Shown here piece after piece: positions 46,929-54,288 of a stretch of DNA of 64,000 nt. Each line of letters starts with the position of its first letter. The first letter of the stretch is position 1. A program made the translations under genes and the position numbers. Source of the stretch: Desulfobacca sp. (GTDB taxonomy: Bacteria > Desulfobacterota > Desulfobaccia > Desulfobaccales > Desulfobaccaceae); the NCBI GenBank assembly GCA_020725545.1, contig DYEV01000002.1:1-64000 (forward strand), in the 5' to 3' direction. The notes below the pieces were generated by a model. The model saw only the letters and a program-made list of their open reading frames with translations, was not told where the DNA came from and did not search any database.

Positions 46929-49900
46929 TTAGATGGCTTGCAACATCCCTTGGAACTGCCGATCCCGGCTGTGTTTGATGTCGATAGCCAAGGCCGGGCA
47001 GGTGGCGCAGCAGATACCGCAACCCTGGCAGGCGGCCGGATCGATGGCCACCCGGGCCACCTCTTGATCAAATTGGGGGGCGCCGTACGGACAGACCCGC
47101 AGGCAGTTGAGGCAGCGGACACAGTCGCCGGTATTGACGTAGGCCACTGCACCGCTGACCTCCATGGTCTCCTGGGCCAGAATCCCCAGGGCCCTGGCCG
47201 CGGCGCCCCGACCTTGGGCAATGACTTCTTCGGTGAACTTGGGGGCATGGGCCAGGCCGGCCAGGAAAAAGCCGCTGCTGGAAAAATCCAGGGGCCGCAG
47301 CTTGACATGGGCTTCCAAAAAGAAGCCATCCATATCCACGGGAAGTTTATAGACCCGGCCCACCTCGGCCAACCCGGGGCTGGGCCGGAAGGCCGCGGCC
47401 AGGATGAGGTAATCGGCCGGGATGACCACCGGTAGACGCAGATTCTGATCAAGCACCTTTACCTGCAGTTTTGGCCCGACAGCCGTCACCTCGGGTTTGG
47501 CCAGCCGTTCGAAACGGATAAATCGTACCCCCAGATTGCGGGCTTTTTGGTAAGCCAGCTCGTTGAAGCCGAAGGTGCGGAGGTCCCGGTAGAGGATGAT
47601 GACCTTGACGGTGGGATCCTGGTCATGCAGGCGCATGGCGTCATTGACCGAGTTCGTGCAGCAGACCCGGGAGCAATAGGGAAATTCCGGCTCCCGGGAG
47701 CCGACGCATTGGATCATGACCACCGTGCTGCCGGTGGGCAGAGGTTGACTGCTGGCCAGCCGTTCTGCCAGTTCCAAATGAGTCAGGACGCGCTCTGATT
47801 GGCCATAGAGGTATTCCACCGGCCGATATTCCACGGCACCGGGGGCTAAGATGGTGGCACCGTGGGAGACCTCCAGGCGTTGGCCAGCATTGGTCTGGAC
47901 GATGCTGATAAACTTCCCCAAATGTCCACGGAAATCGAGCACCTGGGCACCGGTCAAGACCTGAATCTTGGGGTGTTGCTGGACCTTGGGCAGAATCTCA
48001 GCCAGATAAGCGGAGACCGAGCGGCCATCCCGGGTAAGGTGTGGCCGGCGGGCCAAACCACCCAACTCCGCTTCTTTCTCCACCACCGTGCTCTCATACC
48101 CGGCCTCGGCCAGGGTCAGGGCCGCAGTGAGGCCCGCCAGACCGCCGCCCACCACCAGCCCCCGGGGCACCACCTGGAACCGGGTTTCCTGGAAAGGCTC
48201 CAGATTCAGGGCTCGGCCCACAGCCATGCGGATGAGGTCTTTGGCCAAGGCCGTGGCCCGATTCGGTTCGGCCTGGTGCACCCAGGAATCCTGATCCCGG
48301 ATATTGGCCATTTCGAAAAGATACTTATTCAGCCCCACCTGTCGCAGGTTTTCCTGAAAGAGGGGTTCATGGGTGCGGGGGCTGCAAGCCGCCACCACCA
48401 CTCGGTTGAGCTGGTGCTCCTGCACCACCTGCCTGATCTTTTCCAAAGAATCGGTGGCACAGGTAAAGGTGAGATGATCAGCATAAACCACCCGGGGCAG
48501 GGTTTTGACGTACTCAGTGACTGCTGGCACATCCACCACCCCGGCGATGTTGATGCCGCAATGGCAGACAAAGACGCCCACCCGAGGTTCTTCCTGGGAG
48601 ACGTCCCGTTCCGGCGGATAGGTCTTGGAAGTCAACAAGGTGCCGCGGGAGTCGGCCAACAAGGCCGAAGCCGAGGCCGCCGCAGCCAGGGCTTGGGCCA
48701 CGGTTTCGGGGATATCTTTGGGGGCCTGATAAACGCCGCAGGTGAAGACCCCGGGCCGGGAGGAAGCCACTTCTTCAAAAGGTTGGCTGGCCGCATAATT
48801 CCAGGGATTGGTCTCTAAGCCCAGGCGGCGGCTCAGGGCCACGGCCTCGGGATGGGCATCCAGACCCACCGACAGCACCACCAGATCGAATTCCTCCAGT
48901 TGAATTTTGCCGTCGGCAGCCACATAGGAAATTTCCAGATTCTTGCTTTGGGGTTTTTCCGCTACCCGAGAAACCATGGAGCGCACATAGCGCACGCCGC
49001 TTTCCTGGGCCCGCTCATAGTAGCGGTCAAAGCCTTTGCCATGGGCCCGCATATCAATGAAAAAGATGGACGGTTCGACTTCCGCATCATGTTCCCGGGC
49101 GATGATGGCCTGCTTGGTGGCATACATGCAACAGACCGAGGAGCAGTAATCCCGCCCGGCGGCCTTATCCCGGGAGCCGACGCACTGGATCCAGGCGATC
49201 TTTTTGGGCTTCCGGCCGTCTGCGGGCCGCTGCACATGGCCTTGGGTCGGACCGGTGGCCGAGAGCAGGCGTTCAAATTCCAAGGCCGTGACCACATTGG
49301 CATACCGGCCATAGCCGTATTCCGCTTTGCGGCGGGCGTCGAAGGGCCGGTAACCGGGGGCCAGGATGATGGCACCCACCTGGAGTTCCAGCTTTTTGGC
49401 CTGTTGGTTGTGATCCACCGCGCCGGGTTTACAGGCCTGGACACACTGCATACATTCGGAGCAGATGGCGCAGTTGAGGCAGCGATCCGCCTCCCGCCGA
49501 GCCTGTTCTTCATTGTAGCCCTGCCTTACTTCCGCAAAAGTGGCGAGGCATTGGTCCACCGGCAAGAGGGGCATAGGCTCCCGGGCTTGTTTTTCCTCGG
49601 TTAAAGGGATATCCACCCACCCCTGCATGGCCTGGGCCGCGGTGCTCAGCCCCCGACCGGCGGCCAGATCCCGTCCCTGGAGATAGCGGTCGATGGATTC
49701 CGCCGCTTCCCGCCCGCCGGCCACGGCGCCGATGGCGATCCAGGGGCCCACCTGGACGTCCCCGGCCGCGAAGACGCCCGGCCGCGAGGTCATATAGGTG
49801 ATGGGATCGGCGTCGATGGTACCCCAGCGGCTGAGCTGAATTCCTGTTCCTGCCAGGCAGTCCAGAGCTGGCCGCTGGCCGACCGCGGCCACGACCATAT

Positions 49901-51350
49901 CGCCGGTTAGGGTAAATTCGGAACCGGGGATGGGGATGGGACGCCGACGGCCAGAAGCGTCTGGTTCGCCCAAGGCCATGCGCAGGCAGCGCAATCCGGC
50001 GACGGCGCCGTCTTTGACCACCACTTCCTGAGGGGCCACCAAAAATTCAATCCGGATGCCCTCCCGTTCGGCATCGGCTATCTCCTCGGGATTGGCCGGC
50101 ATCTCTTCCCGGGAGCGGCGATAGAGGATGGTGGCTTCGGCTCCCAGGCGTCTGACGCTCCGGGCCACGTCGAAGGCAACGTTGCCGCCGCCCACGACCA
50201 GGACCTTTTTACCGAGACGCACGGTTTGGCCCAGGGCCAGGCGGCGCAACAACTCCACCCCTTCCAAGACGCCATCGGCCTCTTCGCCGGGAATCCCCAT
50301 CGGGGTGCCCATATGGCAGCCCAGTCCCAAAAAAATGGCTTTATAGCCGTCTTGCAAGAGGCTGTCCAACGTCAGGTCCCGGCCCAAGGCCATATTGGTC
50401 TTGATCTGCACCCCCCAACGCTGGATGTAGGCAATCTCTTTTTCCAGGATATCCTTGGGCAGCCGATGGTCGGGAATGCCCACCCGCAGCATGCCGCCTG
50501 CCACGGGCAGAGCTTCAAAGATCGTGCAGGGATAGCCCCGCCGGGCCAGATGATAGGCACAGGCGAGGCCGGCTGGACCCGAACCGATGATGGCGACTTT
50601 TTTCCGTTTCTTGGGAACCTTGGGGATGGGCAGTTGGGCCAGATCCACCTGATCCGCGGCGAAGCGCTTCAGATCGCAGATGGCGACGGCTTCGTCCATC
50701 TCCTGGCGGCGGCAGGCGCTCTCGCAGGGGTGGGGACAGACCCTGCCGATGACCCCGGGCAGGGGGAGCTCCTCCAGGATGAGTTTGATGGCTTCTTCAT
50801 ACTTGCCCACTTTGATCAGCTGCACATACCCCTGGACTTTGAGGGTGGCCGGACAGGTGGTCACACAGGGAGCCCGGTCCAACTTTTTGATGGCAAACTG
50901 TGCCGGAATGGTCTGGGGAAAATGGCGGTAGGCAGCCCGACGCGTGCCCAAACCTTCATCAAAGGTCGATGGCATTTCTACCGGACAGACCTTGGCACAA
51001 TCGCCGCAGGCCGTGCACTTGGCCAGATCAATATAGCGGGGCTCCTGGGTCAGGGTAACGGTGAAGTTTCCCGGCTCTCCGGCCAGGCTCGCCACATCGG
51101 CCTGGGTGATAACCTCGATATCCGGATGCATGCCCACTTCGATGAGCTTAGGAGAAATCATACAGGTGGAGCAGTCGTTGGTAGGGAAGGTCTTGTCCAG
51201 TTTGGCCATGATGCCGCCCAGGGAGATGTCTTTCTCCACCAGATAGACTTTAAAGCCGGCGTTGGCCGTGTCCAGAGCCGCCTGCAGGCCGGCAATGCCG
51301 CCGCCCACCACCATGACCGCACCGATGCTACGTTTTTCCTTAGTCGCCAT
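46929..51350 (-). CDS. hdrA: Giant HdrA-type flavo-iron-sulfur protein with GltD-like insertion and second HdrA
   Basis: 1473 residues. Residues 10-100: HdrA/QmoA-type FAD fold (VVGGGIAGLQAAL, NDCSTCMISPKLIEVG). 110-125: ferredoxin CTACGDCAKVC. 160-560: a GltD/NfnB-like unit with the Fe-S lead (CVTTCPATLKVQGY, CPHPCESACRR), FAD site IIGSGPAGLACAYH and NAD(P)H site VVGGGNVAFDVARS. 632-643: a Cys cluster (CLNCAICSECMQC). 725-745: CVGSRD...CSSVCCM. 923-1473: a complete second HdrA (VGVFVCHCGINIAGVVDVP, VVGGGLAGLTAAL, CVGSREPEFPYCSRVCC) ending in two 4Fe-4S sites. Probably electron bifurcation or confurcation between NAD(P)H, ferredoxin and thiols. Follows hdrC and hdrB. Confidence 0.93.
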   Translation of the reverse strand: MATKEKRSIGAVMVVGGGIAGLQAALDTANAGFKVYLVEKDISLGGIMAKLDKTFPTNDCSTCMISPKLIEVGMHPDIEVITQADVASLAGEPGNFTVTLTQEPRYIDLAKCTACGDCAKVCPVEMPSTFDEGLGTRRAAYRHFPQTIPAQFAIKKLDRAPCVTTCPATLKVQGYVQLIKVGKYEEAIKLILEELPLPGVIGRVCPHPCESACRRQEMDEAVAICDLKRFAADQVDLAQLPIPKVPKKRKKVAIIGSGPAGLACAYHLARRGYPCTIFEALPVAGGMLRVGIPDHRLPKDILEKEIAYIQRWGVQIKTNMALGRDLTLDSLLQDGYKAIFLGLGCHMGTPMGIPGEEADGVLEGVELLRRLALGQTVRLGKKVLVVGGGNVAFDVARSVRRLGAEATILYRRSREEMPANPEEIADAEREGIRIEFLVAPQEVVVKDGAVAGLRCLRMALGEPDASGRRRPIPIPGSEFTLTGDMVVAAVGQRPALDCLAGTGIQLSRWGTIDADPITYMTSRPGVFAAGDVQVGPWIAIGAVAGGREAAESIDRYLQGRDLAAGRGLSTAAQAMQGWVDIPLTEEKQAREPMPLLPVDQCLATFAEVRQGYNEEQARREADRCLNCAICSECMQCVQACKPGAVDHNQQAKKLELQVGAIILAPGYRPFDARRKAEYGYGRYANVVTALEFERLLSATGPTQGHVQRPADGRKPKKIAWIQCVGSRDKAAGRDYCSSVCCMYATKQAIIAREHDAEVEPSIFFIDMRAHGKGFDRYYERAQESGVRYVRSMVSRVAEKPQSKNLEISYVAADGKIQLEEFDLVVLSVGLDAHPEAVALSRRLGLETNPWNYAASQPFEEVASSRPGVFTCGVYQAPKDIPETVAQALAAAASASALLADSRGTLLTSKTYPPERDVSQEEPRVGVFVCHCGINIAGVVDVPAVTEYVKTLPRVVYADHLTFTCATDSLEKIRQVVQEHQLNRVVVAACSPRTHEPLFQENLRQVGLNKYLFEMANIRDQDSWVHQAEPNRATALAKDLIRMAVGRALNLEPFQETRFQVVPRGLVVGGGLAGLTAALTLAEAGYESTVVEKEAELGGLARRPHLTRDGRSVSAYLAEILPKVQQHPKIQVLTGAQVLDFRGHLGKFISIVQTNAGQRLEVSHGATILAPGAVEYRPVEYLYGQSERVLTHLELAERLASSQPLPTGSTVVMIQCVGSREPEFPYCSRVCCTNSVNDAMRLHDQDPTVKVIILYRDLRTFGFNELAYQKARNLGVRFIRFERLAKPEVTAVGPKLQVKVLDQNLRLPVVIPADYLILAAAFRPSPGLAEVGRVYKLPVDMDGFFLEAHVKLRPLDFSSSGFFLAGLAHAPKFTEEVIAQGRGAAARALGILAQETMEVSGAVAYVNTGDCVRCLNCLRVCPYGAPQFDQEVARVAIDPAACQGCGICCATCPALAIDIKHSRDRQFQGMLQAI

Positions 51351-51403: not shown

Positions 51404-52255
51404 CTAAAGCAGACCTCGCCGCTGCAGCAGGGGCAGGGGGTTGACAAAATGGCGGCTCAGCCAAGTCGTAACCTCAGGGTGGCCCAGGGCCAGGCCGATC
51501 AATTCGGTAAAATACAAGATGGGCAGATAATAGGACTTGCCGGTCTTTTGGGAGATACGCTCCTGGGGGATGTCTAAGTTGGCCTGACACATCTGGCAGG
51601 AGACGACGATGCACTCCGCCTCCGCCTCGAGGGCCCGATCATAGAGCTTTTGCACCAGGGTATCGATGATGTCCGGTCGAGAGATGGTAAAACCGGCGCC
51701 ACAGCAGTCGGTTTTATAGGACCAGGGATAGGGGTTACCCCCCAACCGTTTGACCAGCGTATCCATATTCGTTGGATTTTCATAGTCCGGCCGTTGGGTA
51801 ATTTTGGGTGGACGCGCCACCACACAGCCATAGTAGCACACCGTGCGCAGGCCCCGGAGGGGTCGGACAATTTTGGCCTGTATCTGGTCCAGCAGAGGCG
51901 GCTGCGTCAGATAATCCAGGAGATCCCAAATCTTAATGGCGCCCTGATAGGCCATTTCGGGTAAAGCGGCCGGCCGCTGCACGAGGGTGTGCTCTGCCAC
52001 CTTAAGACGATTAAAACACAGCGCACAGGGGACCACGACGTCCTGTCCCAGCGTCTCGGCCTGGATGAGGTTTCGAGCCGCCAAGGTCAGGGCCAAGTGT
52101 TCATCAATGCTATGCGCTGCGGTGGCGCCGCAACAGTTCCAATCTGGGATCTCTTCCAGAGCAAGATTGAGCAGGGCGACCACGGCACTGATGGATTCCT
52201 GATAATCCCTGGCACTATGCTCCAAAGAACAGCCCGGGTAATATGAGACCTTCAT
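51404..52255 (-). CDS. hdrB: Heterodisulfide reductase subunit B-type protein
   Basis: 283 residues with two CCG domains. The first starts VSYYPGCSLEHSA, then WNCCGATAAHS and later VPCALCFNRL. The second has CYYGCVVARP, DCCGAGFTIS and SCQMCQANLD. These hold the noncubane iron-sulfur clusters that reduce disulfides in HdrB. There is no membrane segment, so it is the soluble form. It begins 9 bases after hdrC and ends 53 bases before hdrA. The disulfide substrate in a bacterium is unknown, perhaps DsrC or a thiol. Confidence 0.94.
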   Translation of the reverse strand: MKVSYYPGCSLEHSARDYQESISAVVALLNLALEEIPDWNCCGATAAHSIDEHLALTLAARNLIQAETLGQDVVVPCALCFNRLKVAEHTLVQRPAALPEMAYQGAIKIWDLLDYLTQPPLLDQIQAKIVRPLRGLRTVCYYGCVVARPPKITQRPDYENPTNMDTLVKRLGGNPYPWSYKTDCCGAGFTISRPDIIDTLVQKLYDRALEAEAECIVVSCQMCQANLDIPQERISQKTGKSYYLPILYFTELIGLALGHPEVTTWLSRHFVNPLPLLQRRGLL

Positions 52256-52264
52256 GCCGCCATC

Positions 52265-52852
52265 CTATGATTTGGGTTGGTGCCACAGTTTAACCAGGGC
52301 CTCGAGCTGCAGCAACCGCCGGGGTGGTTTCAGGCCCAGTCGCCCCTTTTGGAACATCTTGAGACCTAAGCGCAGGTCTGCCTTTATCTCGCCGGTCTGC
52401 AGTCTCCTAAGCCCCTGGCCGCTTTTCAGCATATATAACCCCAGTAAAAGAGGCTCGTGGAGACGCCCCCCGGCCAGGCGGATATTTTCCAAGAAAGCCC
52501 GGTGGAAGGCCAAGACTTGGGGCTGCGGCACCGGCCGCCCTGAGCGGACGGCCCGTTCTTTGAGGTAATCCATCACCCCGGCGATGTCGATGTCATTGGG
52601 ACAGCGGGTCGTGCAGGTCTCGCAGGCGGAGCAGACCCAGATGGTGCTGCTGCCCAGGACCAGGTCCGTTTGCCCCAAGCCGGCCAGACGGATGATCTCG
52701 TGGGGCAACCGATCCATCGCAAAGGTGAGGGGACAGCCGGCCGAACACTTGGCACACTGATAACAATCAGTGACACAAATCTGGCGATCCCGCAAGATCT
52801 CCTCACTCAAGGTAAATTGGGGCTCCAAGCCATACCTTCCGGCAGCTGCCAT
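52265..52852 (-). CDS. hdrC: Heterodisulfide reductase subunit C-type protein
   Basis: 195 residues from ATG 52852, which has GAGGAGG 5 bases ahead; the ORF-track Met nine residues earlier is less good. Two ferredoxin-type 4Fe-4S sites: CVTDCYQCAKCSAGC and WVCSACETCTTRC. The helical C-terminus (res 100-195) mediates docking in the Hdr complex. It carries electrons from HdrA to HdrB. First gene of the unit. Upstream, TCCGGATCAATCCGGA (52959-52974) is a palindrome that could be an operator. It lies at the boundary of a decayed region. Confidence 0.94.
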   Translation of the reverse strand: MAAAGRYGLEPQFTLSEEILRDRQICVTDCYQCAKCSAGCPLTFAMDRLPHEIIRLAGLGQTDLVLGSSTIWVCSACETCTTRCPNDIDIAGVMDYLKERAVRSGRPVPQPQVLAFHRAFLENIRLAGGRLHEPLLLGLYMLKSGQGLRRLQTGEIKADLRLGLKMFQKGRLGLKPPRRLLQLEALVKLWHQPKS

Positions 52853-53335
52853 GGGCCCTCCTCTGTTTAAAGTTGGCATTGGCCAGTTGTCAGTTGGTGG
52901 GGCAAACCTTCAGTGCCCGTCCAAGCCAGTCTTTGGACTTACCTGTGTACTTTCCGAATCCGGATCAATCCGGAAATTTGCCCTGACCCCATTATGAGTA
53001 TTAAGGATAAACGAATATTTCTCGGATGGAGAAGCGGTGTGCGAACCGCCCCTACAGGTTAATTCGCGGCATCCTTATATGAGTCATGGCAATCAGCCTG
53101 CCCAGCCTCTTGGCCTGGACGTGGCTATGTTAGAATCCTGTTACCGTAGATGTGAAGTCTCGCGGCCAGACCCAGGGGACCGGTGGTCCCTAAAAGTATA
53201 CCACACCCTGCTGGTCACCGCCAAACTTCTAAGGCAATATTTGTTAGATATTCACTACTTTTGACGCTACACCGAGAGAGTGCGCCCTGTCAAGCCTAAA
53301 TCGGGGGCTTTCGTCCCGAGAGTGCCGTTGAGGAA
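52853..53335. other. Intergenic, no intact gene
   Basis: The hdr leader is followed by sequence with no credible gene. Two items stand out: TCCGGATCAATCCGGA (52959-52974), two self-complementary TCCGGA units 4 bases apart, and GTGTGCGAACCGCCCCTACAG near 53038, a common REP-like unit. The ORF 53037-53264 has no sensible protein pattern. Confidence 0.4.
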
Positions 53336-53551
53336 CTACCGGAGGTGGTATAGATCAGCATCGGGCGGCCAAGAAGTGATTTCGGTTGCGTCCACCTTTT
53401 TCAGCTCCCGCCGGAGATGGCACCGACAGGTCTGGCGGTCGGTACAGACCACGGCATTGTCGGCGCTCCAGATAGCGGTGCTCAGGATGCCGGCAAAAGC
53501 CTCTTTAAAGAAATCCGACAAGATGGAGGATCGCCGTGATTGGTCAATCAT
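53336..53551 (-). pseudogene. IS66-type transposase remnant
   Basis: On the minus strand the frame reads FKEAFAGILSTAIWSADNAVVCTDRQTCRCHLRRELKKVD, which follows the IS66 core pattern G-x-L-x-(S/T)-D-x-W-x-A-Y-N-A-V-x-C-x-D-R-Q-T-C-x-x-H-L-x-R-x-L. The catalytic Asp is Ala and the Tyr is Asp, and the rest of the gene is missing. It is a dead fragment. Family recalled from knowledge of IS66, not searched. Confidence 0.65.
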
Positions 53552-53654
53552 ATATTAAAGTTGAGGGCTAGGCAGCCGGGCCTCATGCTGGCTTACAGCA
53601 GCGCCAACCCGGGAGACCTGGCCACCGGCCGCGGTCGGGCCGACCTGTGGCTCG

Positions 53655-54122
53655 GTGGGATATACTCTGAACCTCTACGACCTGAAGCGTTCGGTGGCTT
53701 TGGGGGCCAGCCCGCGGACCGCCGGGAGCTCCTGCACCGGCCATCAGCTCAATATGGCCTGGGAGAGCGGTTATGATCTCAAGTTGGTTGGCTTCAAGAT
53801 CACCCCGGCTGCCAACCTGTTTTACTCCAGGGTCTGGCTACCGGCCCATACTGAAACCGGCGCTGGTTCCCTGACTTTATAGGTAATGCGCCAGACCGCG
53901 GCTTCGCTGCAGACCGGCTTGGGCGCCCGCTTGGCGTTTCACTGGCACAGCGGCCAGTCGCGCCTGGCAATGCAGATGCGGGGCTCTGTAGCCATTACCA
54001 ACGACAAAGGAGAACGCCTCTATATCCGGCAGACCACCGACCCGGAACCCTTCCACCTGGAAATCTACCGGGCCCGAAACTTGCCGCCCAAACCGCTAAA
54101 AACCAAACGATTCAGAGTTTAG
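53655..54122 (+). pseudogene. Autotransporter beta-barrel remnant with internal stop
   Basis: One frame reads LNMAWESGYDLKLVGFKITP, then AANLFYSRVWLPAHTETGAG, then SLTL, a TAG at 53880-53882, and VMRQTAASLQTGLGARLAFHW. This matches autotransporter barrel strands (GGYDF..G.W.LTP.ASL.Y.......TESGAGALNL, then DSLRTGLGARL). The passenger and most of the barrel are gone. The last 40 residues (ERLYIRQTTDPEPFHLEIYRA) look like another, transposase-like tail, which is less sure. Confidence 0.65.
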
Positions 54123-54237
54123 CAAGATGTAGTGACCATAAAACCGCCCAAAATGACCTATTGCATGGATATAACTATTTTATTTTGTTAGCCGTGGTAA
54201 ACTTGGGCTAGGTGGGGGCGTTGTGTAGGGCGCACCA

Positions 54238-54261
54238 ATAAAAAAGGGGCCAGCAGGCCCC
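54238..54261 (-). terminator. Intrinsic terminator after nuoN
   Basis: On the minus strand GGGGCC-TGCT-GGCCCC followed by TTTTTT and ATT, 28 bases past the nuoN stop. It ends the nuo operon. The same stem ends in TTCTTT on the plus strand, so it may work both ways. Confidence 0.88.
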
Positions 54262-54288
54262 TTCTTTATCCGCCGGTTTCACATCTTT

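Follow-up and report, generated by a model that had tools for sequence, protein, structure and literature searches.

We examined a stretch of 64,000 nucleotides from Desulfobacca sp. (the window), in which a single open reading frame with an ATG start and zero internal stops on the minus strand (46929-51350) encodes a 1473-residue protein, as an earlier sequence-only reading had claimed. Pfam/NCBIfam searches and alignment to solved chains identify the product of this gene, hdrL, as an HdrA-GltD-HdrA fusion, wherein HdrA pieces flank a GltD module (Table 1). The genes hdrB and hdrC, which the same reading had placed in one unit with it, are found immediately upstream, 53 bp separating hdrL from hdrB and 9 bp hdrB from hdrC. 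The window unit consists of hdrC-hdrB-hdrL only, and it has the makings of an HdrABC set: an HdrB with two CCG motifs and an HdrC with two 4Fe-4S motifs beside hdrL.

Table 1. Features of the hdrC-hdrB-hdrL unit (window positions; residue numbers in brackets are those of HdrL)
Feature	Position	Strand	Basis
hdrL, 1473-aa HdrA-GltD-HdrA fusion	46929..51350	-	Single ORF; Pfam/NCBIfam; full-length orthologues
N half, TrxR-like FAD domain, first part (8-104)	51039..51329	-	Alignment to 5odc_A 146-240; model
Cys63 codon = Cys197 of M. thermolithotrophicus HdrA	51162..51164	-	Alignment; TGA in 40/83 homologues
Inserted ferredoxin, piece 1 (105-156; C112, C115, C118, C122)	50883..51038	-	Cysteines in 83/83
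GltD module (~157-623): Fer4_20 Fe-S region, FAD motif GSGPAG, NAD(P)H motif GGGNVA	49482..50882	-	PRK12771; StnC/NfnB/GltD structures
Lys228 codon = StnC Lys170 (NfnB: Glu)	50667..50669	-	Alignment, conservation; role from PMC10482914
NAD(P)H motif VVGGGNVA...YRRSR (385-414), NADPH type	50109..50198	-	Sequence and structure alignments
Inserted ferredoxin, piece 2 (624-648; C624-C640)	49407..49481	-	HdrA alignment, conservation
N half, remaining FAD domain (649-905): Fe-S motif C723/C736/C740/C741; pair E693, K746 (= E356, K409)	48636..49406	-	E and K in 83/83
C half, HdrA N-terminal Fe-S domain (920-1060; C929, C931, C964, C989)	48171..48593	-	83/83
C half, FAD domain (1061-1400), without inserted ferredoxin or Cys197 equivalent; N1236 at bifurcation-Lys site	47151..48170	-	Alignment, conservation
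C-terminal ferredoxin domain (1401-1473) and stop codon	46929..47150	-	Pfam; HdrA alignment; conservation
hdrB, 283 aa, two complete CCG (CX31CCX35CX2C-like) motifs	51404..52255	-	Pfam/NCBIfam; motif check
hdrC, 204 aa, two 4Fe-4S motifs	52265..52879	-	Pfam/NCBIfam; motif check

Three segments of HdrL (residues 12-156, 628-846 and 914-1473) match solved HdrA chains (5odc, 8rvu): the first two jointly cover the FAD domain with the inserted ferredoxin in its two parts, and the sequence from residue 914 onward comprises the HdrA N-terminal domain and the C-terminal ferredoxin, the latter retaining all eight ligands. Structure alignment places a GltD/NfnB/StnC-type module at about residues 155-636, and the GltD-like, NAD(P)-binding profile PRK12771 is matched over residues 155-659 with 554.7 bits against a cut-off of 516. 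With one cluster of the inserted ferredoxin domain on either side, this module takes the same position as in archaeal type III HdrA (PMC12054007), so that the window protein displays the defining trait of the type III HdrA/HdrL class, a GltD within the inserted-ferredoxin domain. An AlphaFold model of residues 1-915 (mean pLDDT 88.8) superposes on the HdrA chain 8rwn_A with a target-normalised TM-score of 0.94, spanning the GltD insert, which itself also superposes on StnC/NfnB chains; in this model the HdrA and GltD folds are both intact. Thus, the domain order put forward earlier (an HdrA start, a GltD-type insertion, a resumed ferredoxin and a second HdrA) is borne out by domain searches and structure alignments alike, and both dinucleotide motifs, the resumed ferredoxin and the CVGSRD...CSSVCC stretch are all in place.

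The fusion of separate genes by a frameshift or an assembly join, which the sequence-only reading had named as what could undo its proposal, left no sign and can practically be dismissed. The same domain order recurs in at least 108 of the 296 sampled genomes of the phylum, a lower bound counted among the matches listed, including one (G003) that is a single contig; 80 loci in named genomes code for full-length relatives of this architecture. We rejected the artefact on account of the full-length orthologues in the same genus, which share 88, 77 and 75% identity with the window protein, and of the even composition of hdrL, whose third-position GC (GC3) is uniform along the gene.

The two HdrA halves are complementary, since the N half is without the HdrA N-terminal domain and the C-terminal ferredoxin, and the C half, which has the N-terminal domain, is without the inserted ferredoxin and a Cys at the Cys197 site. 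The claim of a "whole second HdrA" hence holds for its beginning, at about residue 920, but not for its completeness. An HdrA subunit relies on Cys197 of its partner to complete its N-terminal cluster, and fused HdrAs have been proposed to serve as their own heterodimer partners, as seen in the Moorella protein (PMC9012536). Both halves of the window protein may likewise fold as one internal HdrA pair, with the N-half Cys63 completing the C-half N-terminal cluster. In 40 of 83 full-length homologues this very codon is an in-frame TGA, the only place where one recurs consistently, which fits the selenocysteine form of HdrA that is already known (PMC1794560, PMC2702500); the window hdrL has a Cys codon here and is therefore not a selenoprotein form. 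A further locus of the same genome (L103; C29:213587-214039 and 211019-213565) codes for a double HdrA without the GltD insert, with a TGA at the Cys197 position.

Conservation across the 83 full-length homologues points to which of the flavins bifurcates. The Glu/Lys pair of flavin-bifurcating HdrA, E693/K746 in the N half (E356 and K409 of M. thermolithotrophicus HdrA), is kept in all 83, the window protein included. In the C half the pair is absent from the window protein: the bifurcation Lys, found in 67 of the 83, is an Asn (N1236) here and in the same-genus orthologues. Next to the GltD FAD, the Glu of NfnB is replaced by Lys228, which aligns with Lys170 of StnC; across the homologues this position is a Lys in 59, a His in 23 and a Glu in one. 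Given that the GltD flavin of StnC, with its Lys170, is non-bifurcating (PMC10482914), we read the GltD flavin of HdrL in the same manner: most likely, electrons enter at this flavin and bifurcate at the N-half FAD. Two bifurcation sites, by way of an NfnB-like GltD flavin as proposed for ANME-1, are disfavoured by Lys228. No gene for an NfnA partner subunit was found in the hdrL unit.

The GltD module further bears on the choice of pyridine nucleotide. As a rule of the family, acidic residues after the second beta strand are typical of NADH binders, and a basic YRRxR there marks the NADPH type. The window protein displays this predicted NADPH signature: its GGGNVA motif is followed by YRRSR (410-414), matching the StnC, NfnB and GltD chains with which we aligned it and which bind NADPH. 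The corresponding residues of its paralogues in the same genome are CLENR (C25) and ALETR (C6). Accordingly, the window GltD is predicted to be of the NADPH type and the two paralogues, both linked to genes for methylene-THF reductase (MTHFR), of the NADH type. Among loci with enough downstream sequence, metVF linkage is seen in 19/19 copies of the acidic type and 29/42 of the RR type (Fisher p = 0.006, uncorrected for relatedness). One clade of the family mixes C/A-L-E and YRR types (e.g., L024, L022, L101), and the cofactor type seems, from these sequences, to have switched several times within the family.

The window locus stands apart in its gene neighborhood. Among the 62 scorable loci (those with at least 2.5 kb of sequence downstream of hdrL), mvhD adjoins hdrL in 59, and metV or metF is present in 48; the window copy is one of only three without mvhD. 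No FlpD/MvhD gene was found within 8 kb of the window hdrL, nor were metV, metF or mvhD found in its unit, so that the MetVF-HdrABC-MvhD layout is absent; we take mvhD adjacency as a feature of the locus and not of the protein family. Two same-genus orthologues likewise show hdrC-hdrB-hdrL with no mvhD/metV match in the downstream sequence of about 0.4 kb (G001) and more than 7 kb (G003); as far as the flanks are readable (about 1 kb in the remaining G002), the partner genes are missing in all three. The sister-genus orthologues (G004-G006), in contrast, have the order hdrC-hdrB-hdrL-mvhD-metV, and in the tree the window copy, together with L021, is nested in a clade of mvhD/metF-linked copies. 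From both observations we conclude that the mvhD/metV partners were most likely lost in the Desulfobacca-like lineage, with K1236 probably changing along the way. The genome retains two further HdrL paralogues, one with metV/metF and mvhD (C6) and one with mvhD/metF (C25). The latter, the closest paralogue (L101), is encoded in the order hdrC-hdrB-hdrL-mvhD-metF followed by QmoA/QmoB-like genes, as also in G008, an arrangement that may tie a Qmo-like module to methylene-THF.

On the other side of the unit, no convincing gene was found on either strand in the ~1.4 kb between hdrC and nuoN (52880-54288). A functional unit with the upstream nuo genes is unsupported, given this gap without a conserved gene and the absence of nuo genes among the matches around the Desulfobacca acetoxidans orthologue. 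Part of the neighboring complex I cluster is a fused NuoE-NuoF of 610 aa, encoded beyond the window (L109:2877-4709, on C7).

Eight FlpD/MvhD-like regions are found in the genome, three of which carry one in-frame TGA (C6:8600-8968, C25:180679-181047 and C29:210372-210740). With selB also present (C25:153604-155496), selenocysteine is probably incorporated into MvhD proteins of this organism. Such genes are missed or shortened by standard ORF prediction, and the TGA-interrupted mvhD on C6 was located by tblastn.

Taken together, the domain content and gene order suggest that this HdrL-type (type III) HdrA works in a soluble, NADPH-linked, flavin-based bifurcating or confurcating Hdr complex, a proposition that we regard as evenly balanced. 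Both the direct entry of NAD(P)H through the GltD module, as envisaged from the sequence earlier, and the HdrA bifurcation site find support in sequence, residue conservation and fold, and for the former there is the precedent of the Moorella homologue, which belongs to an NADH-oxidising enzyme (PMC9430772). In the proposed mechanism, NADPH would reduce the non-bifurcating GltD FAD, and electrons would reach the N-half FAD, with its E693/K746 pair, through the clusters of the GltD module and of the split inserted ferredoxin. A high-potential branch would then lead by way of HdrC/HdrB to a disulfide (in a sulfate reducer, most likely the DsrC trisulfide), and ferredoxin would be engaged by a low-potential branch, possibly through the C-terminal ferredoxin domain normally taken by MvhD; the complex could run in either direction. 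NADPH as the substrate, and ferredoxin and a disulfide as the partners, are what we infer from the sequence, with DsrC a candidate for HdrB by virtue of gene presence: dsrA and dsrC are in the genome, and HdrB has two complete CCG motifs. Counting against the NADPH-linked bifurcating reading, the eight MvhD-like regions of the genome could serve in trans, and RR-type copies also occur in metVF-linked loci.

One alternative is that the window protein is still the HdrA of a methylene-THF reductase, recruiting MvhD and MetVF in trans from C6 and C25 into a Moorella-type complex. The mvhD-metV genes downstream in its close sister-genus relatives, the metVF linkage in 48 of the 62 loci and the metV/metF and mvhD genes that this genome carries on C6 and C25 would all fit; yet both MetVF-linked loci have HdrL copies of their own with NADH-type motifs, the partner genes are gone in the three same-genus orthologues as far as their flanks are readable, and K1236 has become N in the window lineage, which together make such a role rather unlikely. 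A plain NADPH:disulfide oxidoreductase, in which the GltD insert displaces ferredoxin at its docking site and electrons go straight to HdrBC, is unlikely too. A published structural argument, by which the GltD insert keeps ferredoxin from reaching the inserted ferredoxin domain (PMC12054007), speaks for such a non-bifurcating version, as do K1236N in the C half and the lack of MvhD, but the N-half bifurcation pair is invariant (83/83) and the eight C-terminal ferredoxin ligands are kept as a possible ferredoxin port. The enzyme might also run anabolically, confurcating reduced ferredoxin and a dithiol (e.g., reduced DsrC or an HdrBC-linked donor) to form NADPH for biosynthesis; HdrA systems are reversible in principle, and the NADPH-type motif sets this copy apart from its NADH-type, MTHFR-linked paralogues. 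However, the sequence gives no direction, and an NfnB/GltD-like protein (C6:16803-18038) may already supply NADPH, leaving this an improbable option.

As an extension of the NADPH-linked bifurcating reading, we tentatively propose, with more doubt than confidence, that HdrL of the Desulfobacca lineage was freed from MvhD and MTHFR and now acts by itself as a bifurcating NADPH:ferredoxin:disulfide (DsrC) enzyme on which ferredoxin docks at the former MvhD site. If this were true, NADPH would drive sulfite reduction and ferredoxin reduction together. For tracing how complete-oxidising sulfate reducers exchange electrons among NAD(P)H, ferredoxin and the pathway of sulfite, the three HdrL paralogues (two NADH-type and MTHFR-linked, one NADPH-type and stand-alone) offer a natural comparison in one genome, with Desulfobacca acetoxidans as a cultured relative.

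The type of fusion itself is already known, in HdrL, the Moorella MTHFR HdrA, ANME-1 HdrA9-11 and type III HdrA. The novelty implied by the sequence-only reading, which held that the NAD(P)H unit is usually a separate subunit, thus does not stand: the architecture has been on record since 2009, is common in the phylum by the above count and is already characterised (PMC2702500, PMC9430772, PMC9012536, PMC12054007). What is peculiar to the window copy is modest, namely its NADPH-type residues and its want of MvhD/MetVF partners. HdrL1-HdrL3 of Desulfobacterium autotrophicum HRM2, described in 2009 as HdrA/glutamate-synthase fusions with an NADH-binding site and proposed to pass NADH electrons to sulfite reduction (PMC2702500), are similarly large fusion proteins of a sulfate reducer; unlike the Cys-containing window copy without mvhD, each has mvhD right behind it, and two of the three are selenoproteins. 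The Moorella thermoacetica HdrA (1487 aa, 162.8 kDa) belongs to a methylene-THF reductase composed of MetVF-HdrABC-MvhD (PMC9430772, citing Mock et al. 2014), for which NADH:benzyl viologen activity is reported (PMC9430772). By the description in PMC9430772, it resembles the window protein in a ferredoxin and TrxR domain split by GltD, a second HdrA that runs from residue 922 and has no inserted ferredoxin, and the accompanying hdrB and hdrC; by the same description, its unit includes mvhD and metVF, the enzyme uses NADH and the E/K pair is present in both halves, whereas the window copy has neither mvhD nor metVF and carries N where the C half would have the Lys. ANME-1 HdrA9/10/11 (PMC9012536) and archaeal type III HdrA (PMC12054007) share the GltD-fusion arrangement; these proteins are archaeal, with nine sequences in the type III set bearing a GXGXXG (NAD) motif, in contrast to the GGGNVA (GXGXXA) and YRRSR of the window protein. 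Finally, StnC of the Sporomusa Stn transhydrogenase (8oh5; PMC10482914) parallels it in that a GltD-like NADPH module is joined to an Fe-S protein, a Lys occupies the K170 site and a FAD that does not bifurcate feeds a separate bifurcating flavin (a prediction for the window protein), but the fusion of StnC is to NuoG instead of HdrA, and bifurcation there is carried out by the StnAB FMN.
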